Positions 41,625 through 59,587 of a stretch of DNA of 64,000 nt are shown one piece after another (position 1 is the stretch's first letter; each line of letters opens with the position of its first letter). Origin of the DNA: Phycisphaerae bacterium (GTDB lineage: Bacteria > Planctomycetota > Phycisphaerae > Phycisphaerales > SM1A02); NCBI GenBank assembly GCA_002702575.1, contig PAAJ01000006.1, forward strand, positions 62,001 to 126,000, written 5' to 3'. Made by a program: the position numbers and the translations under genes. The notes below the pieces were generated by a model. It worked only from the letters and a program-made list of their open reading frames with translations, made no database searches and had not been told where the DNA came from.

Positions 41625-43319
41625 TCACGCGTAGGAGTGCAGCCCTGAGATCGTGAAGTTGATGATGATCCAGTTGAAGAGCATCACACCACATCCGATG
41701 ATCGAAAGAATCGCCGTCCACATGCCCTTGTCCTTCGACTTGAGCCGAACGTGGATCAACATCGCATAGATGATGAAGGTGTTGAGCGCGAAGACTTCCT
41801 TGGGATCCCAACCCCATGGTCGACCCCAGGAGTGATCCGCCCAGATCGCACCCATCACCAGACCGGCCCACAACAGAATGAATGAGAGCTCGACGAGAAT
41901 CATCGTCGTCCCGTCCAGGATGTGACCGAACGTCGTCTTCTCGGAGACCAGACCGACCTGACCGCCGGATCGAGGCACGATCAGGAAGCCGGCACCACCT
42001 GCACGCGCCCAGGCGTCGACACCCTTGCCGTTACGAGGGAACAGTCTCCAGATGATGTAGAAGAAGGCCGTCAGGGCCGCCAGGAAGATCAGGGCGTACG
42101 AGAAGATGATCACGTTGGTATGGATGTACAGCCAGATGTCATGAAGCACAGGCATCTTGTTGGAGATGCCGGCGCTGAGTTCAAGTGGATACAGACGTGT
42201 CGCCATCATGGCGATCATCGAGCATCCCGCACTGACCAGCGCAAAGATGCCTGCCATGCGGGTCCTGCGAACGATCAGTTCCATCACGATCGCAAAGCAA
42301 GCCGCGAACCAGGCGGATGTCGTGATGGCTTCGAACATGTTGGTGTTGGGCCATCGATCCGCCACGTACCAGCGAAGCATCACGGCCGCCGTCTGGCCGA
42401 TGAAGCCCAGGCCGAAGAGCATGAACCCCAGCCACAACGCGCCTCGCCAGCGATAGACCATCCACATCAGAAGCAGCGCGATGCTGAAGAGGTAGATGAT
42501 CCAGACCCAGGTGAGATGCCCCCACTGGAAGTAGAAACTCTCCCACTGCAACCGTTCACCGGATGGATAGACCGCAGGGTTGATTGAACGGACCGCAGCC
42601 GCCAGATCGACGAGCGCGGCATTCACGGCTGGCGCATCTTCGGCCGCCCAGGCTTTCTGGAGTTCCAGCCAGGATGACACGACAGGCTCGTTCGTTCCCA
42701 TCGATGAGAAGCTGTCCAGCGTTTGCCATGGTCTTTCCAGGGCGTCGTCGCCGACAGGTGGCACCATGGCCATCGAACGTCTCAGGATGTCCGGTTGGGC
42801 GACACTGACCGAAGTCTGGATCGCTTCAATGGGCTTGGCGAAGCGAAGAACATCGCCCTGCATGCCACCGAGTTGATCAACCACGCCGGGATTCAGAATG
42901 AATTCACGCGCGATCAGACCTGTTTCCATGAACCGCTCAAGGCGTTCATCTGTTGCTGATTCGGGCCGTCCTTCACCAATGAGCGCCTGAATGATGGCGG
43001 CTCGCATCGGCTTCTTCTTCACGAAGACGATGGGTCTGTCGACATAGGCCTCCGGCCGAAGCGCGAGATCAAGATAGGTGAACGCCGGAGATTGGCCGTC
43101 GATATTCCGTGAACCACTGACAAACTGCATCATCGAACGGGAGAAGGATTCCCATGACTTGATTCGTCCATCCTGCCAGACAGCGACCTCGTTGAATGGA
43201 GAGAGGTCGACCTGGGACTCGAAGGAAGCAGGTTCCTGAGCAGGCGCTTCAACCACTTCCTGAGCCGAAGCCCATGGAGCGAGGCAGATACAGCAGAGAA
43301 TCAGCAGCCACGACTTCAT
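41625..43319 (-). CDS. ccsA: Cytochrome c biogenesis protein CcsA (ResC-like)
   Basis: A 564-residue membrane protein. A signal-like N-terminus (MKSWLLILCCICLAPWASAQ) and a periplasmic region of about 220 residues precede eight or so membrane helices. The heme-handling WWD motif is visible as WADHSWGRPWGWDPKE, with His residues in flanking loops. The start at 43319 is set by the ATGA overlap with the resB stop; a longer frame to 43532 lies inside resB. With ResB it forms the system II heme export and cytochrome c synthetase. The extra periplasmic N-terminal region is unusual for CcsA (about 300-400 residues). Confidence 0.9.
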   Translation of the reverse strand: MKSWLLILCCICLAPWASAQEVVEAPAQEPASFESQVDLSPFNEVAVWQDGRIKSWESFSRSMMQFVSGSRNIDGQSPAFTYLDLALRPEAYVDRPIVFVKKKPMRAAIIQALIGEGRPESATDERLERFMETGLIAREFILNPGVVDQLGGMQGDVLRFAKPIEAIQTSVSVAQPDILRRSMAMVPPVGDDALERPWQTLDSFSSMGTNEPVVSSWLELQKAWAAEDAPAVNAALVDLAAAVRSINPAVYPSGERLQWESFYFQWGHLTWVWIIYLFSIALLLMWMVYRWRGALWLGFMLFGLGFIGQTAAVMLRWYVADRWPNTNMFEAITTSAWFAACFAIVMELIVRRTRMAGIFALVSAGCSMIAMMATRLYPLELSAGISNKMPVLHDIWLYIHTNVIIFSYALIFLAALTAFFYIIWRLFPRNGKGVDAWARAGGAGFLIVPRSGGQVGLVSEKTTFGHILDGTTMILVELSFILLWAGLVMGAIWADHSWGRPWGWDPKEVFALNTFIIYAMLIHVRLKSKDKGMWTAILSIIGCGVMLFNWIIINFTISGLHSYA

Positions 43320-45739
43320 GGAGCTTCCCCCTTCAGGCCACGGTAGACGTCCATCGACTTGCGCCGTTTGAGGACAGGCTTCACATAGAACGCATAGATC
43401 ATGCCGATGACGGACAGAACGCTTCCGAACAACATGGTCCACACACCATTTCGATTGCCTACACCGAGAATCGTGTAGTTCAATCCCTTGCTTCCGGCGC
43501 GTGCAGCCGATGTCGCCTCCGGAGGATCCCACTGGGACTGGAAGTACCAGAACCCGTGTCGTTCCTGTGGAGCATTCACACTGACAGGTGCCAGAAGATC
43601 TCCTTCACCATCCTCGAATCGAACATTGCTGATCCAGTTCAAGACGCTCGAGACCTGACCGGTGAAACCACCGACATGGGACCGGATGTCGAATCCCTCC
43701 AGTGAGACGTTCGAGGGAAGCGGTGCCGTCTGGCGTGAATAGAGAATCTCGATCATGCGCCCATCCGGCATCGTGACGACGGATGGTCGATAGGAAAATC
43801 GTCTGAGAACGTCCTGGGAGTCCTTGAAGGGATAGTGGTGATAGGTCAACCATGCCTGACGTTTTGCATCCGGCATCCTGATCTTGACCATGGACAGCTG
43901 ACCGCCGGCTCGAGGTTGCCTGGCACGCTTTGCTTCCACACGCGGCCGGGTTTCCATGCCCATCCTGGCGTCGTAGGACTTGACGTTCAATGTGACATCC
44001 GGACCCAGCTGGTGTGACTCCCCGACCACCAGGTCGATGATCTGCGGGCCGCCTGGCAGCAAGGTGGATACGAGCCTGAGCTGATTGTCGTCCGGACCGG
44101 CGACCAGGGTGACCGGGGCCATCGGGCGAACCGCCGGCACATAGACCGTCGTGATCGATTCATCCAGCTTGCGATCCTGCGCCATGTGCGCGTCGATCGG
44201 GCCGTCGAGCGGGAAGTCGCCGTTCAGCGCGGGTGAATCAAAGACCCAGCGGAGCCATGTCTGGTTTCCATTGCGCATCTCGACACGAGCCATGTTGAGC
44301 GAACGACCTCGTACAGTCAGATCATCATCAATGCGCTGAACACGCCATGCGTAGTCCGTTCCCTCGACTGGTGTCCATGGGGTATCCGAATCCAGTTCAG
44401 TGAAGCCGGTAATCTCTTCTTCGATCTCGAGATCCAGTTCCGGAACACCGATACGAAGTTGCGGACCACGCGCTTCGAGCATCGAGTCGATCTCGACTTC
44501 ATCATCGATCCAGACGAAACGCATCAGCGAAGGGTCGGGACTGGTCGGATTCTCATCCAGCGCAAACATTCGATGGCTGACTGATCGCCCCTCTGATGTC
44601 ACGAGATCCAGATTGATGACCGGATTGTGCTGATCTCCGCCCGGAACATCACGGGATTCCATGCCGGCATATGGAAGGTAGGCGGTGATGTAGAGCGGTT
44701 CATCCGCCAGTGGATCGTCTGGTGATGCCGGTTCCACCGGTAGAACAAGTCGACCCGTCTTCACCGCATCTTCACCAGCGGGAAGCCATGCATCCGTTGC
44801 CAGTTCGATGTACTCGTTGTACCGAGGAAGGCCTTCGATGGGTCGTTCGATCCATGGTGTCACCGGAACGAGTGCACCATCGATTCCGGGTCGGACTTCA
44901 CGTAGATACAACGCTGAGGAATGCATCACCCAGAAGTGGGATTGCGTATCGGCAGCGAGTTCCATCCGGAGCGTATCGTCGACGAGTGGCTGACCGGTTT
45001 CCTTGACGGATCGTGCCCATGGCTGGGCAGGGTTGCTCGACTGGACCATGTCCTCGGTGAATTCGGGATAACCCGCAAGCAGCTGGCGAATGAACATGCC
45101 TGTTGGTGACTGAACCATCACCTTGACGGCATAGGCGGCCTGCCCCTTGTCATCACCACTCAACAGTTCCCAGTTGGGATCGATGTCGATGACCTGAAAA
45201 TTCCATGGTCCGCCTGGTGCCGTCACCGCTACTTCATGTCCGGGCATGGCCCGAAGCGTGACCGGTGGAGCACCCTCAGGTTGGATGACGAGGCGAGCTC
45301 GTGCAATGGGGACATCGCCCTCAATCTTCGTAGCAAAATAGAAGACGCAACCAAGGGCCATGATGATCAGGCCCGCATGCACCATCCACACGCCGAGATT
45401 GATGACCGAAAACGGAATCCGGCGAATCGTGGTGACGGTCAGGGTCAGACAGGTCAGTCCGACCAGCAGGAAGAACGGCCACCAGTTGAACCACTCGTAT
45501 TCAGTCATCTCGAACAGTCGCCAGGACCGTACAGCTGTCCAGGCTCCGGGTTCCCAGATGGCGTAGGACAGGGGCAGTCCAGCGGATCCAATCGCCGAAT
45601 AGACGAAGAGCAGGAACAGGAGCACGATGCCGAAACGGACACTGCTGAACAGGTCCAGAATCCACATGAATGGATTGGACTGACCCGTCTGTCGGGTCGT
45701 TTCGATCGATGATGAGCTGGTCCTCGCGTCCGAGGTCAC
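43316..45739 (-). CDS. resB: Cytochrome c biogenesis protein ResB (CcsB-like)
   Basis: An 807-residue ResB. The N-terminus has the typical first helices (FSSVRFGIVLLFLLFVYSAIGS, then WPFFLLVGLTCLTL and VINLGVWMVHAGLIIMALG with the conserved His). A very large periplasmic domain of about 570 residues follows, and a final helix near the C-terminus (WTMLFGSVLSVIGMIYAFYV). Translation starts at GTG with AGGAG upstream. It is first in resB-ccsA-PRT. Typical ResB is 350-600 residues, so the periplasmic part is expanded, and a homologous size difference is seen in ccsA. Confidence 0.9.
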   Translation of the reverse strand: MTSDARTSSSSIETTRQTGQSNPFMWILDLFSSVRFGIVLLFLLFVYSAIGSAGLPLSYAIWEPGAWTAVRSWRLFEMTEYEWFNWWPFFLLVGLTCLTLTVTTIRRIPFSVINLGVWMVHAGLIIMALGCVFYFATKIEGDVPIARARLVIQPEGAPPVTLRAMPGHEVAVTAPGGPWNFQVIDIDPNWELLSGDDKGQAAYAVKVMVQSPTGMFIRQLLAGYPEFTEDMVQSSNPAQPWARSVKETGQPLVDDTLRMELAADTQSHFWVMHSSALYLREVRPGIDGALVPVTPWIERPIEGLPRYNEYIELATDAWLPAGEDAVKTGRLVLPVEPASPDDPLADEPLYITAYLPYAGMESRDVPGGDQHNPVINLDLVTSEGRSVSHRMFALDENPTSPDPSLMRFVWIDDEVEIDSMLEARGPQLRIGVPELDLEIEEEITGFTELDSDTPWTPVEGTDYAWRVQRIDDDLTVRGRSLNMARVEMRNGNQTWLRWVFDSPALNGDFPLDGPIDAHMAQDRKLDESITTVYVPAVRPMAPVTLVAGPDDNQLRLVSTLLPGGPQIIDLVVGESHQLGPDVTLNVKSYDARMGMETRPRVEAKRARQPRAGGQLSMVKIRMPDAKRQAWLTYHHYPFKDSQDVLRRFSYRPSVVTMPDGRMIEILYSRQTAPLPSNVSLEGFDIRSHVGGFTGQVSSVLNWISNVRFEDGEGDLLAPVSVNAPQERHGFWYFQSQWDPPEATSAARAGSKGLNYTILGVGNRNGVWTMLFGSVLSVIGMIYAFYVKPVLKRRKSMDVYRGLKGEAP

Positions 45740-45958
45740 GGTTCACTCCTGAGTTCAGGACTGGTTGGGCTGATCAGAGCCCCTTGGGGTTCAAAGCAGG
45801 GCTCAAATGGTAGGCCAGCCACGCCTCTGATGTGGTGGGTCCAAGGAGGATCCAATGGGAGAAATCGGCTTTCTGAGCGCAAAAAACCTCCAAATGACGC
45901 GTCAGGGAGCCTAGAGGGAGATCCCTGCACCATGGATGTGAATATCGGTTGAATGATC

Positions 45959-45986
45959 TTGAGCCCGTTGCATGGCCATACATAAT
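45959..45986 (+). promoter_or_regulatory. Promoter of giant protein 1
   Basis: TTGAGC (45959-45964), a 16-bp spacer and CATAAT (45981-45986). The same hexamers with the same spacing occur before the paralogue at 53711, which supports this as a real promoter. It implies a leader of about 120 nt. Confidence 0.6.
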
Positions 45987-46068
45987 AGAAGGACTGACAT
46001 GTTCAGCCGCTGCTGCGTGATTGGAGATCATCGCAGACAGCATCGGGTGTTCGGAGCATCAGGGATAG

Positions 46069-46110
46069 CCGGGATGATTCCTCATGGAGGGAATCCCGGG
46101 AAGAGAGAGT
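46069..46110 (+). promoter_or_regulatory. Leader hairpin before ribosome site of giant protein 1
   Basis: CCGG-(bulge GAT)-GATTCC pairs with GGAATC-CCGG (46069-46081 with 46090-46099), a 10-bp stem with an 8-nt loop. The stem ends two bases before the purine-rich ribosome site AAGAGAGAG (46101-46109). Its paralogue has an equivalent GATTCC/GGAATC stem. Confidence 0.55.
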
Positions 46111-46114
46111 TGAT

Positions 46115-49100
46115 ATGACCAAGTTCAGGCAATCGCTGTACTTCATGGCCATCGGTGCATGTGTCTCCCTGCAGACGGCATTGGGCGATCTTGAGGGAGT
46201 CATTCCCAGCAGCCCCGGATCGGACTGGGCCCCCTTCTACTACAACTCGTCCGGCGTCCGACCCGATCAGCTCGGGGATGCGGTCGCGATGAGTGATGAC
46301 TGGTTCATCATCGGGGAGTCCGAGGGAGATGGTCCCATCTCCAATACGGGAACCGCCTGGGTGCTCTCGTGGAACGATGGCTCGCAGGCCTTTGGGAACC
46401 CGGTTGATCTGGGATCACTGGTGCCGGCATCCGAAATCGTATCCCAGTCGTCGTTCGGTGCTGCTGTTGATGTTGATGGTGTCTACGCCGTCGTCGGTGC
46501 ACCAACCTGCAACATGGAAGGCACGTTTTCAGGACGGGCCTATCTGTTCGAGTATTCAGAAGGTGAGTGGACCTATCGCCATACGTTCGATGATGGCGCA
46601 GCAGGCAGTGAATTCGGGATTGCGGTTGATATCGATGGACGAAGTGTCGCCATCGGTGAACCCGGCGAAACAAGTGATGCCGGGTATGTCAATCTCTACG
46701 AGATCGTCGATGGGCTGGATTCGGGGGTCGTTTCAGTCGGCGGCCTGCAGCCACAGCGTGGATCGACTCCCAGGTTTGGTGAAGCGCTTGATCGTGATCG
46801 GGATCTGCTGGTCATCGGTGCACCGGGAATCTCAGGCAGCATCGGTTACGCGGCGATCTACGAAAACCTGTCCGACGGTTCCTATGTGTTCGATTCATTC
46901 CTGAATCCACCAGCCGACCTGGATGACAGTCTTTCGAAGTTCGGAGCTGCCGTTGCGATCAGCAACAATACGGCCGTGGTCGGAGCGCCTTGGCCTGAAG
47001 GTGGCGCAGAGGATCACGGTGGCGTCGTGGTCTTCGATCAGGAAGCGGACTCCTCGTGGGTCGCCTCGGCGAGACTCGACAACGATGAGACCGCCTCCAG
47101 CATCCGCTTCGGTCAGGCAGTCGACATCCACGAGGATCTCATCATTGTCGGAATTCCTGCTGACAATCCCGCCGGAAATGGATCCGGTTCCGCGAGGATC
47201 TTTCGGTATTCGCCCACCAGCAGTTTCTGGGTCCTGGAACATCATCTGCTCGGTTGGGATGTGACTTCGGGTGATCAGTACGGCGATGATGTCGCCGCAG
47301 GTCCGCATGGTGTCGGTGTCGGCGTGCCCTTCTACAACGTCGGGTTCACCGGAAACGAATCCGGTGTGGCGTTCATCTACAGACAGATGTCGTGGGACGA
47401 TGACAACTGGCAACATGACATGCGACAGATCCAGCCATGTCTCGGATCTGATCAGATCATACGCAATCCCGAGATCGACGCCGACACGGCCTCGTTCGGA
47501 CTTGATATCGCTCTGGATTCCAACACGGCCATCGTCGGAGATCCCTACTACAGGAATGATGATGGTGATCCCAGCGGAATCGTCCGCTTCTATACAAGAA
47601 GCACTGTCGACAGCGATTGGGTTCTGTTGTCTGGTAAGGATGTCGATCTTCCTGAGCCCATCGATGCCTGGGAACAATTCGGTGCATCCGTGGATATCGA
47701 AGGTGATTTCGCCATCATCGGCGCGCCGGGACATGACTCGGATACCGGGCGAGTCATCATCATGCAGCGACAGGGTTCATCCTGGGTCGAAGTCGATGTC
47801 ATCGGCGATGACGTGACCGGTGCGCTCTTCGGCTTTGACGTGGCTGTGGATGTCGCATTCGGCCAGACCTACTTCATCGTCGGGGCACCGACCTCCTACA
47901 GCACGGCCGGCATCGTCCGCGTGTATCAATGGGACGACGGAGATCAGTATGCAAAGGAGCTCTTCTCCGTACTGGATCCGCAGTGGTCGGGAACAGCAAC
48001 CAGTCGGTTCGGCGAAGCGGTGGATATCAACGTCACGAATACGGATCAGATTCGTTTCGCAGTCGGAAATCCATGGCAGTTTGGACCGGATGGCTACGGT
48101 TCGATCAGCATCTTCGATGCCAACGACACTGGATTTGCATGGATCTACGGAAATTACACCAACAGCCTGCCCTATTCCGATCAATTCGCCCTGGAGGGCG
48201 GGTTCTGCGCAACCAACATCGATCTTGATGACGACCTTCTGATCGTATCCATGCCCCAAAGTACGGACCTCTACTACGAACAAGGAGGCGCCGTGATCTA
48301 TGAAGGCAATGATCTGACCGGCAATGGAGTCCTTGATTGGTCCTTTTCATATCTTCTGTCACTTGATTTGCCAGGGAACGGAGATCTCGCAGGACATGAT
48401 GTCGCCATCGATGCTTCCAGCGGCATTGCCGTGATTGGTGTTCCGGGGCTGGATTACACGGGTGTCAATTCGGGCGCCGTCGCTCCATTCAGGTTCGATG
48501 GATTCGACTGGCGCACGGACATGATGCTCATCAGCAGCGTTCCTCAACCTGGTGTCGCCATCGGCAAATCCGTCTCACTGGATGGCACAAGTCTCCTTGC
48601 AGGCGGACCTGGGCTGGATATCACCGAATCTCCAAGCTTCACCACACGTGCGCTCTCCTGGGAACTCGTGGAACGGACGTCGTATCAGGACATCGATGGT
48701 GGTTCGATGGCGAGCGACAATGCCTGGACGGGTGGTGTCGGTGGTGCCGGACATGCGCTCTTCTCCCTGTGGCTGGCCGATCCCTATGTCGTACCTTTCG
48801 ACATCGATCAATGGCTCGGATCCATCCAGGTCGAACTGGACCAGATCACCTTCAATCTCATGTCAGGCGAGCGTTCGGTGAGCGATTCCATGGAGATCGC
48901 CGGTGCGACGGATATCAAGAGTGCTTCCGTAACCCTCGAAGCTGGAACGCTGACCATTGAAGAGAATATGACTGTGGGTCAGGAGAACGGATATGGCCAG
49001 ATCAATGTCGGCAACTACGGTTTTCTCGAAGTCGTCCAGACCTTGAATCTCACGGAGGATTCCGGAACTTCGATCATTCTGGATGGCTCCGCTGATCCCA

Positions 49101-50848
49101 AGATCATCACCTACGTCCAGCCACCTGCCATCAATGGCACCATGCAGGTCCAGATCGGATCCAGCATGGATGTGGAGGACTTCGTCGAGGGAACAAGAAT
49201 CGTTCTCATCTCGGCGGGCGTGACCCCGACAACGAATGCACTGGATGCGCTGGTCCTGCCTGGTCTGAGTGAAGGACTTGCCTTTCAGGTGACCTATGGC
49301 GATCCGGACAGTCGTTCCATGGGTGGTGGTTGCGTTGGTGGTGAGATCGAGGATTGCTTTGGAAACTGCTGTCCAGCCACGTGGATTGGTGATGGCTTCT
49401 GTGATGATGGATCCTATGACTACGATGGCTTCGACATCTATCTCAACTGCGAAGCACTCGGCTGCGATGGTGGTGACTGTAAATCATGCTGGTCGGAGGG
49501 CGGCACCTGGGAAATGGCCATCGAGGTGGTCTCTCTGGCTGGTCTTCTGAACTTCGGTGATCCCAATTCGGTCCTCGTGGAAGGCGAACCCACCGCTCTT
49601 GAAGTGGTCGACCTGACCAATGACGGTGCAGAGGAAATCTGCGTGACCTTCGCAGGTTCGCCTGGTCAGCTCTACATCTTCGAAAATGATGGTGCAGGCG
49701 GCATTGCCCAGCAGATCGTGCTTGCAACGGGCGATCAACCTGTCGACATCACGAGTGGTGACTTCGACGGTGATGGTCGTACGGATCTCGCGGTTGCGAA
49801 CAATCTCGGTCAATCGGTCGACATCTACTACAACGATGACAACGACGTGAGCAATGGATTCAATCTGTTGAATCCGAGTCTGGCAGTGGATGCCCCACCG
49901 ACCTGCCTGGCAGGTGTCGATGTCGATCTTGATGACATCGATGATCTCGTTGTCGGTCTTGAGGACATCGATGGCAACGGCAACGGTTTCTGGGCCATAT
50001 ACATCGGAAACTCGGCGCTTCGAGGCGCCGGCATGAGCAGCGGTGGCGGACTCGAGCCTTCGGGCACACCACTCGGCATCGATCCCAGTGAAGAAGAGGA
50101 TCAGAAGGAAATGCTCTTTGTTGGACGGACTGACGATGGCAAGGCAAATGTCGGCAAGCGCGAGGCGGCGACCACCGGAGTCTCGCTCACGATTGATGAG
50201 TATGTCGTCGGTGCCGACCCTGGTGGTATTGCACTGGGTGATTTCGATGACGATGGTCTGACGGACATCGCGATCACGAGCACCCTCAACGGTACGGTCG
50301 GCATTCTTCTGCAGGATGCTGGCGGAACTGCTGATTTCCTTCCAGTCACACAGATTCCACTGGGCGATGAGCCGACGGGAATCACGTCCGTGGATTTCGA
50401 TTCGGATGGCAATCTCGACCTGGCGATCATCGTGATCGAGACTGATCTGGCGGGGATCACCACGCCTGTCGTCAGAGTCCTTCAGAACGACGGGAGCCTG
50501 ACCTTTACATCCACCGATGTCGCGGAAAACGAGGACGTCGCACTGGTTGACAATGGCGACATCAGCGGTAACGGGACTTCTGAACTGGTCACCATCGGAA
50601 GCGGTGGCGCGTTCAGACGTGGTGGAGCCAGTCCACTTCTGTCACTGCGTGAACTCGAATCCGCACCGGATTGCATTGGTGATGCAGACGGAAACAGCAC
50701 GGTCAACGTCAAGGATCTTCTTGCAGTACTTTCCGAATTCGGAAGATGTACTTCAGGATGCAATGGGGATTTTGATAGCGATGACGATGTCGACATCAAT
50801 GATCTCCTCGCCCTGATCAGCAACTGGGGTCCATGCGGCAAGGATTGA
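46115..50848 (+). CDS. Giant secreted FG-GAP protein 1 with LNR-like and dockerin-like domains
   Basis: A 1577-residue exported protein with a signal peptide (MTKFRQSLYFMAIGACVSLQTALG). Residues of about 40-830 are integrin-alpha-like FG-GAP repeats with the pattern FGxAVDIxGxxAVVGAP. About 900-1060 is a beta-solenoid-like stretch (GTLTIEENMTVGQENG). About 1079-1125 is a cysteine-rich module, C...CC...DGFCDDG...C...C..GDC, resembling the Lin-12/Notch repeat. About 1160-1510 is an FG-GAP/VCBS propeller with DFDGDGRTDLA motifs. The last 60 residues contain two Ca-loop sequences (DADGNSTVNVKD, DFDSDDDVDIND) ending NWGPC, the planctomycete dockerin-like tail. No catalytic domain is visible; adhesion or surface display is plausible. 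Confidence 0.85.
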   Translation: MTKFRQSLYFMAIGACVSLQTALGDLEGVIPSSPGSDWAPFYYNSSGVRPDQLGDAVAMSDDWFIIGESEGDGPISNTGTAWVLSWNDGSQAFGNPVDLGSLVPASEIVSQSSFGAAVDVDGVYAVVGAPTCNMEGTFSGRAYLFEYSEGEWTYRHTFDDGAAGSEFGIAVDIDGRSVAIGEPGETSDAGYVNLYEIVDGLDSGVVSVGGLQPQRGSTPRFGEALDRDRDLLVIGAPGISGSIGYAAIYENLSDGSYVFDSFLNPPADLDDSLSKFGAAVAISNNTAVVGAPWPEGGAEDHGGVVVFDQEADSSWVASARLDNDETASSIRFGQAVDIHEDLIIVGIPADNPAGNGSGSARIFRYSPTSSFWVLEHHLLGWDVTSGDQYGDDVAAGPHGVGVGVPFYNVGFTGNESGVAFIYRQMSWDDDNWQHDMRQIQPCLGSDQIIRNPEIDADTASFGLDIALDSNTAIVGDPYYRNDDGDPSGIVRFYTRSTVDSDWVLLSGKDVDLPEPIDAWEQFGASVDIEGDFAIIGAPGHDSDTGRVIIMQRQGSSWVEVDVIGDDVTGALFGFDVAVDVAFGQTYFIVGAPTSYSTAGIVRVYQWDDGDQYAKELFSVLDPQWSGTATSRFGEAVDINVTNTDQIRFAVGNPWQFGPDGYGSISIFDANDTGFAWIYGNYTNSLPYSDQFALEGGFCATNIDLDDDLLIVSMPQSTDLYYEQGGAVIYEGNDLTGNGVLDWSFSYLLSLDLPGNGDLAGHDVAIDASSGIAVIGVPGLDYTGVNSGAVAPFRFDGFDWRTDMMLISSVPQPGVAIGKSVSLDGTSLLAGGPGLDITESPSFTTRALSWELVERTSYQDIDGGSMASDNAWTGGVGGAGHALFSLWLADPYVVPFDIDQWLGSIQVELDQITFNLMSGERSVSDSMEIAGATDIKSASVTLEAGTLTIEENMTVGQENGYGQINVGNYGFLEVVQTLNLTEDSGTSIILDGSADPKIITYVQPPAINGTMQVQIGSSMDVEDFVEGTRIVLISAGVTPTTNALDALVLPGLSEGLAFQVTYGDPDSRSMGGGCVGGEIEDCFGNCCPATWIGDGFCDDGSYDYDGFDIYLNCEALGCDGGDCKSCWSEGGTWEMAIEVVSLAGLLNFGDPNSVLVEGEPTALEVVDLTNDGAEEICVTFAGSPGQLYIFENDGAGGIAQQIVLATGDQPVDITSGDFDGDGRTDLAVANNLGQSVDIYYNDDNDVSNGFNLLNPSLAVDAPPTCLAGVDVDLDDIDDLVVGLEDIDGNGNGFWAIYIGNSALRGAGMSSGGGLEPSGTPLGIDPSEEEDQKEMLFVGRTDDGKANVGKREAATTGVSLTIDEYVVGADPGGIALGDFDDDGLTDIAITSTLNGTVGILLQDAGGTADFLPVTQIPLGDEPTGITSVDFDSDGNLDLAIIVIETDLAGITTPVVRVLQNDGSLTFTSTDVAENEDVALVDNGDISGNGTSELVTIGSGGAFRRGGASPLLSLRELESAPDCIGDADGNSTVNVKDLLAVLSEFGRCTSGCNGDFDSDDDVDINDLLALISNWGPCGKD

Positions 50849-50854
50849 GATCGA

Positions 50855-53470
50855 TCAGTTTCCGAATGAACCCAGGGTTTCGAGACATCGTGCGCGAACT
50901 TCACGAGCACTGTCCTCCAGTGCACGAATCGGTTCCGAATCAGGCCACTGTCTTCGAGCCGATTCAGCCAGTTCCATCGCCCGGTCCACTGCAGCCTTGC
51001 CTGCGGAAGGATCGCCTGCTGCCAGATAGGCCTGTGCCAGTGAAATCTCGGTCTGGAGAAGATGCCGGGTGTTCTTCTGATCCGATTTGTTGTCGCCTCC
51101 GGATCGTTGAGCCGCCTCGGACCATCCGATGCGAGCCTCGGACAATGGCATGACTGCTTCGGAAGCCTTTCCCGAGTAGATCATGCAGAGCCCGTACTCG
51201 AGCAGGCCTTTGGCAAGATCATCTCTTGTCCTGATGTCCTTCGGGCTGTCTGCGACGAGTTCGCGCATGAGCGGGATGACCTGAGTGCGATATCGCTTGA
51301 TCGCGGCATCCTGTACGCCCATCGCCATTTCCTGATCAGCGATCAGACGATGCGTGGTCACGATGTCCCGACGCGATGTATTGGTCGCACCTTGCCGTTC
51401 CAGGATCTGCTCTCGACTTTCGAGAGATCGTTCGTACCATTGCTTGGCTCGTTCATGCTCTCCGCGTTGAGACCAGGCATAGGCAAGGCGATTCCAGACG
51501 ATGGTCGCATCACGAACAACACGTGGATCTCCTTCAAAGGCCTCATTCAAGTCATTCAGCATCGACAGCATTCGTGAAAACGCCGGTGTTTCCTCGGGAT
51601 TGCCTTCGGTAGGAACGAGTCGGCTTCGATCGAGCAGAACACCCATCACGATTCGCGCCTGTTCGACATCCCCCATCGGATCTGGCAGGAGGCCTACGTA
51701 CGCTTCCGCTTCTTCAAGTCGTGCAGCCCGATCCTGTTCCTGGCCGGTTCTTCGATACGCATCCACCAGCAGATTCCTGCCACGAATCGAAAGCATGAGA
51801 GACTTGATGTCTTCGGGATCCATTGCACAGAGTGCGTCGGAGATCTGGATGGATTCCTCCCATTTATCGATCGCATCATCGACATCACCACGATTGCCGG
51901 ATTGCAGACTCCACCTGTTGATGCCTGCCTGCTGAAGACCTTCGGAGAGCATCCGTTGAAGCGATGGATCACTTCCAGCCTGCTCTCGAAGTCGATCGAG
52001 ATATTGCAGAGATATGTTGACAACCGATTCACGAGCTTCCTGGCTGTTCGCCAGAGGAACGATTGCATCAAACGTGTCCCGCATGAAGAAGGAGATCAGA
52101 TCTCCCACCATGGCATGCTTCTCCGCCTGTTCCGCCAACGCCGTGTTTCGTGCCTCGAGTGCCTGATTCCTGTTGATCAATGCGAACACACCCGCCATGG
52201 CTGATATGGACAGAAGAATCAGGATGATCGCAAGACCCAGAACGGCCCCTTTGTTTCGTCGAATGACACGACGAAGGGTCGTCATCACGGTCGGTGGGCA
52301 CGCCAGGATCGCATCGCCGGCAAGGTATCGACGAAGATCATCACCCAGTTCGGATGCTGTTCGATATCGATCCTCTCGTTCCTTGGACATGGCCTTGGCG
52401 ATGATCATGGAGACTTCACCGCGAAGACTGGCATCCACGGAACCCAGTGTGGATGGATGATCCTCGGTGATGATCCTGATGGCGCTTGCCAATCCCTTGC
52501 CGGATACGTCATAGGGCAGATCATCACTCAGCAGTTCATAGGCCGTCACACCGATGGCGTACACATCCGCGGCGGAATCCAGATCATGGACGTCTCCACT
52601 GCACTGCTCCGGCGCCATGTACTGGAGGGTTCCTACGATGTCATGTGCACCGGTCGCCATGGTGGCCGCGGCATCGGAATCCGTGCTTCGTGCCACACCG
52701 AAGTCGATGATCTTCACGCGGCCATCGCCAGTCACAAGAATGTTGCCCGGCTTGAGATCCCGATGGATCACACCCTTGGTGTGACCGTGCCCCACGGCTT
52801 CGCAGGTCTGCAGGATCAACTCCAGTCGCTTCCGGGTATCGAGTTTTCGATCCTTTGCGTAATCCGTCAGTATCTTGGCACCGGCGACGTATTCCATCGC
52901 GAAGTAGGGAACACCACCGGCACCTTCATCCCAGGTACCTGCTTCGTAGATCTGGGCGATTCCGGGATGATGAAGCCGTGCCAGCATCTGCGCTTCGAAG
53001 TCGAAGCGCTTGAGCGCACGAGGATTCGTCACACCCGGGTTGATCACCTTGACAGCGACCGTTCGCCTCGGATGGTCCTGACGTGCCATGTAGACGGTGC
53101 CCATGCCGCCGGATCCGATCACGCCCTTGATCAGAAAACCGGCAATTCGAACGGGCATCCCGGGTGGGTGATAGGTTGAATCCAGTTCGAATTCTTCACC
53201 ACCGGCCGGGTCTGCGGTCTCCGCCTGGGATTCTGGAACACGGCCCTTGGCGACACCTGAAGGATCAACGGTTTCATCCAGGTTCCCTGCCGCACCTGGT
53301 CGGACACTGGAATCAAGTGTCTCGGAAACATCCGGATCATATTCCGGAGGGATCCCCGGACGAATACTCGAATCCAGTGTTTCGGAAACATCCGGATCGA
53401 ATGGCTCGTCCTGCTTTCCCGGTGGTTGATCATGTTCACTTGGAAGTGCCACATGAAGAGCGTACCGCAT
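50855..53470 (-). CDS. Ser/Thr protein kinase with helical repeat C-terminus
   Basis: An 871-residue Pkn-type kinase. Residues 20-60 include two near-identical copies of DPDVSETLDSS[I/V]RPG. The kinase domain (about 110-385) has GSGGMGTVY, the VAVKV Lys, HRDLKPGN, IDFGVA and the MAPEQ motif, so it appears active. A membrane helix (about 408-430, LGLAIILILLSISAMAGVFAL) separates it from a 440-residue extracytoplasmic, helical TPR-like region. It is encoded on the opposite strand between the two giant paralogues and ends 6 bp from the stop of the first. Confidence 0.9.
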   Translation of the reverse strand: MRYALHVALPSEHDQPPGKQDEPFDPDVSETLDSSIRPGIPPEYDPDVSETLDSSVRPGAAGNLDETVDPSGVAKGRVPESQAETADPAGGEEFELDSTYHPPGMPVRIAGFLIKGVIGSGGMGTVYMARQDHPRRTVAVKVINPGVTNPRALKRFDFEAQMLARLHHPGIAQIYEAGTWDEGAGGVPYFAMEYVAGAKILTDYAKDRKLDTRKRLELILQTCEAVGHGHTKGVIHRDLKPGNILVTGDGRVKIIDFGVARSTDSDAAATMATGAHDIVGTLQYMAPEQCSGDVHDLDSAADVYAIGVTAYELLSDDLPYDVSGKGLASAIRIITEDHPSTLGSVDASLRGEVSMIIAKAMSKEREDRYRTASELGDDLRRYLAGDAILACPPTVMTTLRRVIRRNKGAVLGLAIILILLSISAMAGVFALINRNQALEARNTALAEQAEKHAMVGDLISFFMRDTFDAIVPLANSQEARESVVNISLQYLDRLREQAGSDPSLQRMLSEGLQQAGINRWSLQSGNRGDVDDAIDKWEESIQISDALCAMDPEDIKSLMLSIRGRNLLVDAYRRTGQEQDRAARLEEAEAYVGLLPDPMGDVEQARIVMGVLLDRSRLVPTEGNPEETPAFSRMLSMLNDLNEAFEGDPRVVRDATIVWNRLAYAWSQRGEHERAKQWYERSLESREQILERQGATNTSRRDIVTTHRLIADQEMAMGVQDAAIKRYRTQVIPLMRELVADSPKDIRTRDDLAKGLLEYGLCMIYSGKASEAVMPLSEARIGWSEAAQRSGGDNKSDQKNTRHLLQTEISLAQAYLAAGDPSAGKAAVDRAMELAESARRQWPDSEPIRALEDSAREVRARCLETLGSFGN
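53302..53402 (-). repeat. Imperfect direct repeat inside the kinase gene
   Basis: Two copies of a roughly 45-60 bp unit (each containing TTTCGGAAACATCCGGATC or a near match, read on the plus strand) encode DPDVSETLDSS[I/V]RPG twice. A third, degenerate copy (NLDETVDPSG) follows. Recent duplication in the cytoplasmic N-terminal tail is likely. Confidence 0.8.
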
Positions 53471-53609
53471 GGGTTCGTTCGATTGCAGAGATCACTTGAA
53501 CCGACGCGACGGATCGGCCATTGGAGCCAGATTCCGGCCGGACAACATGCTGCCAGCACCCTCTGAAGGCACCCTCTGCAGTTCCTGTCCTGAATGGTCG
53601 GCTTCACTC

Positions 53610-53637
53610 TTGAGTAGGCCAGTCATCACACCATAAT
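53610..53637 (+). promoter_or_regulatory. Promoter of giant protein 2
   Basis: TTGAGT (53610-53615), 16-bp spacer, CATAAT (53632-53637): the same layout as before giant protein 1. An in-frame ATG at 53636 lies inside the -10 box and so cannot be the start. Just upstream, GCACCCTCTG is repeated at 53556 and 53569 with a 13-bp period, a possible operator. Confidence 0.6.
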
Positions 53638-53658
53638 GAGGAGATCGGCCGCCTTGCT

Positions 53659-53700
53659 GATTCCCCTGGGCTGGCCGATATCGGAGGGGGGAATCCGGAG
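53659..53700 (+). promoter_or_regulatory. Leader hairpin before ribosome site of giant protein 2
   Basis: GATTCCCC (53659-53666) pairs with GGGGAATC (53688-53695); an ATCGGCC/GGCCGAT pairing competes with it. The stem ends one base before the CGGAG ribosome site at 53696-53700, as in the paralogue. Confidence 0.5.
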
Positions 53701-53710
53701 CTTGAAAATC

Positions 53711-56700
53711 ATGTCAGCTGCCCTGATTGGCGCTCTCTCGATCTCGCTTCTGGGAGGAAGTGCCGATATTCAGCCTCCATCAGGAGCCACTCCGGGATTC
53801 GGAAGCTCAATCGATGCGTCCGGATCCCATCTGATCATCGGAACGTCAACCGGTAATGGTGGCAAGGGTCACGTTGCGATCTACGACCAGGCGGATACGG
53901 CAACACCTGTCTGGACACTTGATGTCGCAGGATTTGGAAGTGACGCGGCAGCAGGAACCGCTGTGGCTATCGAAGGACCGTGGGCGGTGGTCGGCATACC
54001 TGGTGACAACAAGGTGGTGATCCTGCATTTCGATGCCGATGCGCCGACACCCCAATGGACCGAACACGAATGGCTCTTCCCACCTCCCGGCATCACTGAA
54101 TTCGGATACTCGATCGATTTGAACGGCAACGAGATGCTGATTGGCGCACCTGGTGGAGATGAAGGTGTTGGCGCCTGGGTTCTCGAGGACTACACGTTCC
54201 CGGATGGATCCACCCAGGTGCTCTGGAACAGCTACGGTTTCATCGGCACACCCCTGCCACCCGGAAGTCGTTGGGGTCATTCCGTCACGATTGAATCCTC
54301 AATTGGATTCGTCGGATCACCGAACGACAACGATGGCAGTGGCCGAATTCACCTGGTCTTCCTGTCTGGTGGGTGGATCGATATCGGTTACGACCTCACC
54401 ACCGAGATTCCGTGGACCAGTGGACAGATCGGCTGGGACGTGATGTGTCGTAATGGCCAGCTGTACGTATCGGCACCCTCCTACGGCCTCAATGAGGCTT
54501 CCGGAATCGTCTGGGTTCTTCGGAACCTCGAACAGGAGGATGGCAGCTTTGCGTGGGCACTCAACAACTATCTCACGCCACCATCAGATGTTCTCCTGAG
54601 CCAGTTTGGTTATTCGATCTTCACGAACGCGAGCAGAGTCGGAATCTCCGCGCCTCAGGCGGATGGCAAGGGCGCGGTCTTCATCTATGACTGTTCGGTA
54701 AAAGACCCCTTGTTCCCGAACTTTCCGTATCTCGGTAAATCCAGTCCAGCAAGCCTGACGAACGATTCTGAATATGGAACCGGTCTGTTCATTGGTGCAA
54801 ACGACATCATCGCCGGTGCGCCCGGAAGTGATGTCTACGGCGACGACAGTGGGCGTGTTCTGATCGACAATCTGGATTCGATCGAACCCCCGTCCAACTT
54901 CCAGGTCCCCTACGACAATTCCACTCCGCTCCTCGCCTTCGAGGGATTCGCGCCTTCATCGATCACTTCTTCAGGCAGCCGAGTTGTCCTGGGTATTCCC
55001 CATGTCAACAGTGGACAAGGCATTGTGCAGTTGATTGAAAATCAGAAAGGTTCCTGGAACATCGATGGTGTTCTGATGAACGACAAGGCTTCCAGTGCGA
55101 ATCTGTACGGTCATGATGTCAGTCAGCATGAAAACATCCTTGCCGTCGGAGCACCTGGAACCAATGGTTCGGGTGCTGTGTACATCTACAAGCAAAGCGG
55201 CCAGGGATATGGTTTCGAAGCCAAGCTGTTTGCGCCGCGGGCCTCCAATACGGCTTTTGGATATTCGGTGGATGTCTACAGGGACGAAGAGGGTCGCGCT
55301 TATGTCGCCGTTGGTGGCCCGGGAATCAATCTTGACACTGGACAGATCACGAATCCCGGACACTGTTACGTCTACCGAGCTGACGCATCCGACTACTCGA
55401 GTTGGTCCTTGATCCTGAGCTGCATCTCTCACGAGCCCAAGTCGCTTCTTGGAATCGATGTTGATATCGAGCAGATGGACAATGGTCTGGTCATGGCTGC
55501 TGGCGAACCCAGTTTTCTTGACGGCAAGGGTTCCGTCAGAATGTTCAGTGGATCCGATACAGCGGAATCATGGAGCGAGCTGCCATCGCTCAGTGGTGAG
55601 GTTGCCGGCAGTCAGCTTGGCTACAGCATCGGTCTGAAGGGTCGTTATCTGGTAACCGGTGCACCTGGCAGTACCGTCAATGCCCCACAGGGTGCCGCCT
55701 ATGTGGTCGCACTCGTCGATGGTGGCCTCTCGGAATGGCACGTCTTGACACCAGCAGCTGGAGATACGCTTGATTCGTTCGGTCAAAGCGTCTCGATCAC
55801 ACGGGACGAGGAGTTCTACCGGGTTGCTGCTTCGATCACGGGTTTCAACGGCGGCCCGAACAGTTCCGGTGTGTGGAGTGGAAGTGCAGCTGATGTGTTC
55901 ATGGGGCAGATTGTCGAAGGTGGATACATCAACTCGCTTGATTATCAATGTCGAGCCGTCAATCCCGAAGTCACGCATGGTCTTGGAAGCAAGGTCGCTT
56001 TCCATGATTCCAGCCTCTTCATGATCAACAACCGGCAAGATGCGCAGGCTCTTGGTTCTGTAGCAAAGGGCGTCTCCGTGTACGAAGGTGCACAGACCTG
56101 CTACTGGATGGCCGGAGACGGAGGCGATACCAATCAGGATTCGAACTGGTCGAGAACGCCTCAGGATGGTGATACGCTGGTCTTCTCCCTTCTTGGGACA
56201 ACTCGATACCTGGTCAACATGGTTGGAATCGTCAATGGCAGACTCGAGTTTCTCTACGACAAGGCGATCCTCATCGTCCAGGAGGAGGCCGCAAAACTGA
56301 AATCGATCATGGTCGGATCGAATGCTGCTGTTGAATCGGCGAGCATCATCATTGGCGGTGGATTGGTTGAGGTCGAGGAAGCTGTACAGATCGGTGGTGA
56401 TGCACAGGACATGGCAGGCAGCCTCTACCTCGCCGTTGATGGTCGACTCGACTGTGACACGATCACACAATCATCTACCGGTCAAATGGGATACGGCATC
56501 AGCAGCATGACATCACCATCCCAGTGGGTCATCGACACCAACAACATCGAAATCAACGGATCGCTTCGGGTCCAGATCCTGGCGGCATTGGCGGATACGC
56601 TGACCGTCAAGGACAGCTTTCACTTCATTCGCTCCTCCACACTCCCACCAGAATCGCAGAATCGTTTCGACGTGATTGTCCTTCCGGCGCTTCCCAATGG

Positions 56701-58081
56701 ACTCGCGATGCTGCCCAAGTACACCGAGGAGTCCGGTGTACGTGCTGGCACCACCGGCTGGACACTCAGCCTGGTCGTCGTATCGGTCGATGATCTTCTC
56801 GCATTCAACGATCCAAGCTCGGTCATCGTCGATGACAACGCCATCGCCATCGAAGTGGTTGATCTGACGGGTGACGGTGCCGAGGAGATCTGTCTGATCT
56901 TCGATGGATCACCTGGAACACTTGTCATCTTCGAAAATGATGGAGCAGGCGGCATCACTCAGCAGGTCATCGTGAATACCGGCAACACGCCGGTCGACAT
57001 CACCTCGGGTGATTTCGACGGAGATGGAACATTCGATCTTGCAGTAGCCAATTCCGCAGATGAGAACGTCAGGATCTACTACAACGAAGACAGCGACATC
57101 ACGAATGGTTTCACGACACTGGATGTCGCGATTGCAAGAACGCCGACCTGTCTTGCAGGAATCGACTACAACTCCGACAGTCTTCGTGATCTCGTCATCG
57201 GTGTCACGGATGATGATGCCGATGGCAATGGCGACTGGCTCTTCTACGAAGCCACCATCGCCATGCGAGCTGGTGGATTCAACCCCGGCGGCGGCATTGC
57301 CACCAATGGCACGCCCCTCGGCGTCGACCCCAGTGAGGAGGAGGACCAGAAAGAGGGCCTGCCGTTCTCTGGAAGGAAATCCAACGGCAGAGCGGATGTC
57401 GCCCGGTTCACCGGTGCCACCAATCTCACGCCTGTCATCGAACTCGATGAATACATCGTGGGTGCCGATCCGGCTGGAATCGTCAATACCGATCTGAACG
57501 GTGACGGATTGATGGATGTGGCGGTCACAAGCAGAACGAATGGAACGATTGCGATTCTGATCCAGGATGTTGCGTCACCAGGTGATTTTCTTGGTCCCAC
57601 CTACATCGCCATCGGAACCGATCCGATGCAGATGACCGCAATCGATTTCAACCTCGATGGCAACAATGACCTCGCCGCCATCACGACAGACGATGATGGT
57701 TTCAGGGTCGTTCGAGTCCTTCAGAACAACGGCAATCTGACCTTCACCAGTATTGATGTCGGCAAGGGCGAGTCACCCATCCTTGTGGATTCCGGTGATA
57801 TTGACGGAAACGGAAGCCGTGAACTGGTCACCATCGGGGACTCCGCCGCACTTCGAAGTGGAGGAACCGAGCCATTGATGTCGGTCCGTGAGGCGGAATC
57901 CAATTGCAACTGCGATGGCGATGCCAATTGCGATTTGAACGTGAACATCGACGATCTTCTTGGAATCCTCGCGGAATATGGTTGTGTTTCCAGATGCAGC
58001 TACGACATCAATCAGGATGGTGTCACCGATGTCGACGACATTCTCATCGTGATCGGCAACTGGGGTCCGTGCTCAAGCTGA
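53711..58081 (+). CDS. Giant secreted FG-GAP protein 2 with dockerin-like tail
   Basis: A 1456-residue paralogue of the 46115 protein. Signal peptide MSAALIGALSISLLGGSA starts at 53711, preceded by GGAG. FG-GAP repeats (VGIPGDNKVVI, FGYSIDLNGNEMLIGAPGG and others) fill about residues 20-790; a beta-solenoid-like linker follows; and residues of about 1050-1380 form a VCBS propeller closely matching paralogue 1 (FENDGAGGITQQ, PVDITSGDFDGDG, GTPLGVDPSEEEDQKE). The end has the two Ca-loop motifs (DANCDLNVNIDD, DINQDGVTDVDD) and NWGPC. The LNR-like cysteine module is absent. No enzyme domain is visible. Confidence 0.85.
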   Translation: MSAALIGALSISLLGGSADIQPPSGATPGFGSSIDASGSHLIIGTSTGNGGKGHVAIYDQADTATPVWTLDVAGFGSDAAAGTAVAIEGPWAVVGIPGDNKVVILHFDADAPTPQWTEHEWLFPPPGITEFGYSIDLNGNEMLIGAPGGDEGVGAWVLEDYTFPDGSTQVLWNSYGFIGTPLPPGSRWGHSVTIESSIGFVGSPNDNDGSGRIHLVFLSGGWIDIGYDLTTEIPWTSGQIGWDVMCRNGQLYVSAPSYGLNEASGIVWVLRNLEQEDGSFAWALNNYLTPPSDVLLSQFGYSIFTNASRVGISAPQADGKGAVFIYDCSVKDPLFPNFPYLGKSSPASLTNDSEYGTGLFIGANDIIAGAPGSDVYGDDSGRVLIDNLDSIEPPSNFQVPYDNSTPLLAFEGFAPSSITSSGSRVVLGIPHVNSGQGIVQLIENQKGSWNIDGVLMNDKASSANLYGHDVSQHENILAVGAPGTNGSGAVYIYKQSGQGYGFEAKLFAPRASNTAFGYSVDVYRDEEGRAYVAVGGPGINLDTGQITNPGHCYVYRADASDYSSWSLILSCISHEPKSLLGIDVDIEQMDNGLVMAAGEPSFLDGKGSVRMFSGSDTAESWSELPSLSGEVAGSQLGYSIGLKGRYLVTGAPGSTVNAPQGAAYVVALVDGGLSEWHVLTPAAGDTLDSFGQSVSITRDEEFYRVAASITGFNGGPNSSGVWSGSAADVFMGQIVEGGYINSLDYQCRAVNPEVTHGLGSKVAFHDSSLFMINNRQDAQALGSVAKGVSVYEGAQTCYWMAGDGGDTNQDSNWSRTPQDGDTLVFSLLGTTRYLVNMVGIVNGRLEFLYDKAILIVQEEAAKLKSIMVGSNAAVESASIIIGGGLVEVEEAVQIGGDAQDMAGSLYLAVDGRLDCDTITQSSTGQMGYGISSMTSPSQWVIDTNNIEINGSLRVQILAALADTLTVKDSFHFIRSSTLPPESQNRFDVIVLPALPNGLAMLPKYTEESGVRAGTTGWTLSLVVVSVDDLLAFNDPSSVIVDDNAIAIEVVDLTGDGAEEICLIFDGSPGTLVIFENDGAGGITQQVIVNTGNTPVDITSGDFDGDGTFDLAVANSADENVRIYYNEDSDITNGFTTLDVAIARTPTCLAGIDYNSDSLRDLVIGVTDDDADGNGDWLFYEATIAMRAGGFNPGGGIATNGTPLGVDPSEEEDQKEGLPFSGRKSNGRADVARFTGATNLTPVIELDEYIVGADPAGIVNTDLNGDGLMDVAVTSRTNGTIAILIQDVASPGDFLGPTYIAIGTDPMQMTAIDFNLDGNNDLAAITTDDDGFRVVRVLQNNGNLTFTSIDVGKGESPILVDSGDIDGNGSRELVTIGDSAALRSGGTEPLMSVREAESNCNCDGDANCDLNVNIDDLLGILAEYGCVSRCSYDINQDGVTDVDDILIVIGNWGPCSS

Positions 58082-58103
58082 ATCGGAAGATTGAACACCC
58101 GGT

Positions 58104-59587
<1,484 letters not shown>

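Follow-up and report, generated by a model that had tools for sequence, protein, structure and literature searches.

Two genes for giant secreted proteins in a marine Phycisphaerae bacterium, referred to here as gene 1 and gene 2, share an uncommon core promoter that appears to be specific to their gene family, and the leader of gene 2 carries a conserved element with the features of a pseudoknot RNA. Both genes lie in the window, the whole stretch of 64,000 nucleotides that was analysed. In the explanation that we favour, and in which our confidence is evenly balanced, the genes are old paralogues expressed from a shared family promoter, and a pseudoknot, or else a two-state structure, in the gene 2 leader tunes translation or mRNA stability. 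In this uncultivated planctomycete group the locus offers a compact system in which regulation can be tested, with a promoter signature that seems to mark one family of giant secreted proteins, and with a leader RNA that is better conserved than the protein encoded downstream of it.

The locus and the genomes compared

Gene 1 (46115..50848, forward strand) encodes a protein of 1577 amino acids, and gene 2 (53711..58081, forward strand) one of 1456 amino acids, counted from the ATG at 53711. As for planctomycete secreted FG-GAP/dockerin-like proteins, both products have a signal-peptide-like start, FG-GAP repeats and C-terminal repeats that by eye resemble dockerin calcium loops, but they are large, and at E 0.01 they match FG-GAP families only and no dockerin model in Pfam or NCBIfam. 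The two proteins are 53% identical across the last 445 amino acids and about 35% identical overall. The signal-peptide-like start of gene 2 (53711-53770) contains no Lys or Arg ahead of the hydrophobic stretch in any of the five species, which is unusual for Sec signals. The longest open reading frame of gene 2 begins at 53636, within the -10 box; a coding function of the leader is ruled out since this frame closes or differs in relatives, and also by the GGAG-ATG arrangement at 53711, the position of the ATG being kept in five species. A Ser/Thr protein kinase gene with TPR matches (50855..53470, reverse strand) is located between gene 1 and gene 2.

The genome holding the window (G000) is represented by a 3.17-Mb assembly of 32 contigs, with a completeness of 96% and a contamination of 8.2%. 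It was compared with five other genomes of the same genus (about 18 Mb for all six), and a scan of public genome contigs for more orthologues returned only G002. Pairs of contigs with identical matches are present in G000 (the end of C25 with C30, C3 with C31, C17 with C32, and C10 with C27), and these duplicated stretches are consistent with its contamination value.

A core promoter shared within one gene family

The core promoter of gene 1 (45959..45986, forward strand) is composed of TTGAGC (45959-45964), a 16-bp spacer and CATAAT (45981-45986), and that of gene 2 (53610..53637, forward strand) of TTGAGT (53610-53615), a 16-bp spacer and CATAAT (53632-53637). These boxes and spacers, as well as the GATTCC and GGAATC arms discussed below, are all found where the initial annotation had placed them. 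Both sites qualify as sigma-70-type promoters, with two hexamers at a spacing of 16-18 bp upstream of a gene, and agree with the consensus in 9 of 12 letters. When both strands of 45700-58600 are scanned for sigma-70-type promoters, only these two sites are identified, but since 6.4 sites are expected in shuffles, a single site of this kind means little by itself. The agreement between the two promoters is beyond chance, as none of 3000 simulated pairs matched at 11 of 12 letters with the same spacing. In the 3.17-Mb assembly, TTGAGY-N16-CATAAT occurs only at gene 1, at gene 2 and at a second copy of the gene 2 locus, an assembly duplicate located at the end of contig C25. No further TTGAG..ATAAT is present in 466 kb of G000 at any spacer length tested, and 137 upstream regions of this genome hold no second case of the promoter. 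Unlike sigma-70-type promoters in general, TTGAGY/CATAAT is kept in the gene family and not found at the other genes sampled. The 137 upstream regions rule out a genome-wide housekeeping promoter, and four tRNA upstream regions likewise have no such boxes; the assembly contains no 16S gene for comparison.

The boxes and their spacing are unchanged among relatives, while the spacer sequence has drifted. Gene 1 and gene 2 have TTGAGT-16-GATAAT and TTGAGC-16-CATAAT, respectively, in G002, and both have TTGAGC-16-CATAAT in G005, so that the promoter and its 16-bp spacing are kept at both genes in three species (G000, G002 and G005); the gene 1 promoter in G001 and G004 reads TTGTCS-16-CATAAT. Across the six genomes, TTGAG-N18-ATAAT gives 12 matches, seven of which are these promoters (six distinct ones and the assembly duplicate) and five of which are elsewhere, mostly within unrelated genes; the reversed pattern gives one match. 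The related pattern CTTGAG-N17/18-CATAMT occurs at 10 distinct sites, with seven upstream of members of the FG-GAP/dockerin-like family, including a third paralogue in each of G001 and G004 (spacer 17, CATACT); the other three are associated with unrelated genes, lying within them, antisense to them or at their start. A different FG-GAP group of the genus has upstream sequence unlike this promoter. That the promoter goes with the FG-GAP/dockerin-like family of gene 1 and gene 2, and is almost absent elsewhere in the genus, is well supported by these sequence comparisons.

Gene 1 and gene 2 would accordingly rely for their transcription on one uncommon type of sigma-70-like core promoter, CTTGAGY-16 bp-CATAAT, presumably served by one sigma factor. 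The shared transcription signal that had been proposed holds in the form of a common, family-specific core promoter, but the joint regulation that was read from it is no better supported than a simple equality of promoter strength. It had further been argued that the likeness is not just recent DNA duplication. Outside the boxes, no similarity is detectable between the upstream regions of gene 1 and gene 2 in G000, which agrees with that argument, but in G005 the two genes are 81% identical over a 69-bp stretch that extends to the end of the -35 box. Because of this repeat, descent of the two promoters by duplication is likely, and duplication with retention of the boxes is the simplest origin.

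Conservation and predicted fold of the gene 2 leader

The comparison of the gene 2 leader covers three sequences (G000, G002 and G005). The block from the -35 box to the ribosome binding site GGAG (53697..53700, forward strand; 9-11 nt ahead of the ATG in five species) is conserved and stops at the ribosome site, with leaders that are 77-79% identical. The promoter spacer has drifted but the leader has not. Protein identity for gene 2 goes down to 46%, and between G000 and G005 the coding sequence is 54% identical and the fourfold degenerate sites 35% identical, which is near saturation.

The initial annotation had described a GATTCC/GGAATC stem next to the ribosome site of both genes, and had proposed that it be examined by covariation. 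In gene 2 this stem is not the minimum-energy fold. Another helix, S1 (53644..53679, forward strand), in which 53644-53654 pairs with 53668-53679 and U53672 is bulged, is the first fold in all three species. Its 5' strand starts about seven bases past the -10 box, at the predicted first base of the mRNA. Two pairs of S1 are changed on both sides (U-A and G-C; C-G and U-A), two further pairs have one-sided changes, and with one broken cell 98% of the cells are paired, compared with at most 71% for slid pairings. The number of both-side changes in these three sequences is equalled by 48 of 500 column shuffles, and the case for S1 as a real helix is therefore supported but not proven, the covariation being suggestive only.

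The stem that was originally noticed, here called S2, would be formed by arms that never vary. The loop of S1 holds GAUUCCCC, which is complementary to GGGGAAUC one base ahead of GGAG. The 5' arm of S2 (GATTCCCC, 53659..53666, forward strand) corresponds to GATTCC(CC) within the S1 loop, and the 3' arm (GGGGAATC, 53688..53695, forward strand) to (GG)GGAATC, one base 5' of the ribosome site; both are invariant in the three species. An 8-nt complement between loop and downstream sequence is found in 0.07-0.2% of shuffled leaders. Because the arms do not vary, S2 has no support from covariation, and the proposed fold rests on covariation for S1 and on invariance and complementarity for S2; the invariant arms could also be a protein-binding RNA sequence or a DNA site. 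As an account of gene 2 the initial annotation thus retains its conserved arms, although as half of a more complex fold rather than as a simple hairpin, and the paired changes fall in S1 and not in the stem it had singled out. The case illustrates that a stem recognised visually may belong to a different fold.

Taken together, these features suggest a gene 2 mRNA with a short leader and a 5' end that coincides, or nearly so, with the first base of S1, in which the S1 loop would offer GAUUCCCC for pairing with GGGGAAUC just 5' of GGAG. The resulting H-type pseudoknot would have an S1 of 9-11 bp, an S2 of 8 bp and a third loop of about 8 nt. Such a fold may shield the 5' end of the mRNA and keep the ribosome site in a set context, and the forming and melting of S2 could tune the initiation of gene 2 translation or, alternatively, affect mRNA stability. 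The leaders do not stand out in folding energy (z of 1.46, 1.06 and -1.57). Rough energies with a standard pseudoknot penalty put the knot about 0.5 to 6 kcal/mol above the most stable fold without one, so its formation may require magnesium, a ligand or a protein, or may not occur.

A rather unlikely alternative is a two-state switch: in one state S1 is accompanied by a short helix, S3, that occludes the start of the ribosome site, and in the other by S2, which leaves the site free. When the leaders are folded without constraints, the first G of GGAG is paired in G000 and the first two bases are paired in G002 (unpaired probability 0.02-0.03); when S2 is imposed, the first three bases of the site are released in G002 (0.84-0.96). 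The register of S3 shifts between species, however, S3 is weak in G005, and the imposed S2 leaves the site unfreed in both G000 and G005. The conserved block can also be read at the DNA level, as an operator that follows the promoter and in which a repressor or activator would bind the S1 and S2 arms as inverted half sites. The long invariant blocks just 3' of the -10 box would suit an operator, but the spacing of the arms varies by one base between species, the changes in S1 come paired, and the conservation ends at the ribosome site, which makes this reading quite improbable. Binding of a protein such as CsrA to the two GGA motifs in GGAGGGGGGAAUCnGGAG, one of which is the ribosome site and would be hidden when bound, is highly doubtful, since GGA is expected in any ribosome site and the flanks of the motifs fit the usual CsrA consensus poorly, even though both motifs are invariant in the three species and a csrA product is encoded twice in each of the six genomes.

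Returning to the pseudoknot fold, a covariance model of the leader was run against the genus and 181 genomes of the family. With E values of about 1e-19 to 1e-20 it recovers the gene 2 leaders of G000 (and the duplicated copy), G002 and G005, and no credible match beyond these, only noise; the leader is present in 3 of the 181 family genomes. In G001 and G004, gene 2 follows about 85 nt past gene 1 without a promoter of its own, and the leader is gone. Among the genomes compared, the leader is retained only where gene 2 has its own promoter. A widespread stem motif was also considered and rejected, as GATTCC..GGAATCnGGAG elsewhere in the family gives scattered single matches only. A literature search on Phycisphaerae dockerin/FG-GAP genes, planctomycete promoters and planctomycete leader RNAs found no mention of the element, and no description of a promoter or leader RNA for this planctomycete group. 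A more speculative proposal, to which we assign a low probability, is that the gene 2 leader represents a genus-restricted new class of regulatory pseudoknot RNA, which would sense a metabolite, ion or protein and set the output of a giant secreted protein.

The leader of gene 1

In G000, gene 1 has a leader of about 120 nt with a strong predicted hairpin at its end, CCGGGAUgaUUCCUC..GAGGGAAUCCCGG (46069..46099, forward strand), with GATTCC at 46076-46081 and GGAATC at 46090-46095, the latter two bases ahead of a weak purine-rich ribosome site that precedes the ATG at 46115. A 6-bp inverted repeat is found in 70% of shuffles of this leader and in 52% of shuffles of the gene 2 leader, each taken alone, but an identical 6-nt arm in both is found in only 0.08% of shuffled pairs. 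The initial annotation took the stem as a simple hairpin ahead of the ribosome site in both genes, acting in joint translational control. In favour of that explanation are the rare shared arm, the predicted fold in gene 1, and a weak hit of the gene 2 covariance model on the gene 1 loop (8.9 bits, E 0.04 in 601 bases), which hints at a common origin. The orthologues argue against it: the gene 1 stem is absent from all four relatives (G002, G005, G001 and G004), and in G002, which has the nearest gene 1 orthologue (66% protein identity), the leader is about 35 nt long and lacks the stem. With S1 as the favoured and covarying helix of gene 2 in three species, a joint hairpin is very unlikely. 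Orthologues without the stem had been named in advance as evidence against the claim, and this is what gene 1 presents; one leader element common to both genes is ruled out. A common origin of the gene 1 hairpin and the gene 2 element is possible, given the rare shared arm and the weak model match, and the species-specific gene 1 hairpin would be a later feature, possibly a remnant of the gene 2 element, and not a shared control device.

Comparison with known leader RNAs

The ompA leader is an example of a 5'-end stem-loop that stabilises a bacterial mRNA. As in ompA-type stem-loops, S1 in the gene 2 leader starts at the predicted 5' end of the mRNA, but its loop is additionally complementary to the stretch ahead of the ribosome site.

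Known RNA families and riboswitch classes, including preQ1-I, are ruled out by the absence of a curated Rfam match, and cmscan of both leaders down to E 5 gave no relevant match. The preQ1 class I riboswitches are small H-type pseudoknots in 5' leaders, whose second helix includes the Shine-Dalgarno sequence or lies close to it (PMC11625349). The gene 2 leader is similar in being a candidate H-type pseudoknot in a 5' leader near the ribosome site. It differs in the lack of an Rfam match, in its longer S1 and S2, in a ribosome site located just outside S2, and in that the gene is not a queuosine gene.

Evolution of the locus and its neighbours

In G000 and G002 the kinase gene separates gene 1 from gene 2; in G001, G004 and G005 gene 1 comes first, gene 2 second and the kinase gene third. 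For gene 1, the kinase and gene 2, identities are 66, 75 and 72% between G000 and G002, and 37, 59 and 46% between G000 and G005, whereas the flanking ResB-like protein of G000 is nearer to that of G005 (80%) than to that of G002 (65%). From this conflict in grouping it follows that the cassette has undergone exchange or turnover with respect to the flanking gene. At 43316-58081 of the window and at L056-L059, the three genes have a history unlike that of the ResB-like flank, and the kinase and gene 2 have swapped places.

Like the present locus, eight others in the genus (L060, L091, L094, L096, L097, L098, L099 and L101) have a Ser/Thr kinase gene of about 800-870 amino acids directly next to giant FG-GAP/dockerin-like genes, with a Pkinase match in eight of eight neighbours tested. 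The pairing of kinase and giant secreted protein is recurrent, in divergent or convergent orientation. Between the ResB-like gene and gene 1, all five species retain the sequence AATGGTAKGYCAG (45800-45825), which lies some 65 bases ahead of the start of the divergent ResB-like gene and is probably a promoter or operator of that gene. In other genera, at L061 (G009) and L093 (G012), open frames that start alike (IEVRT.QGRKR) adjoin distant FG-GAP homologues, and perhaps encode putative FHA-type phosphopeptide readers.
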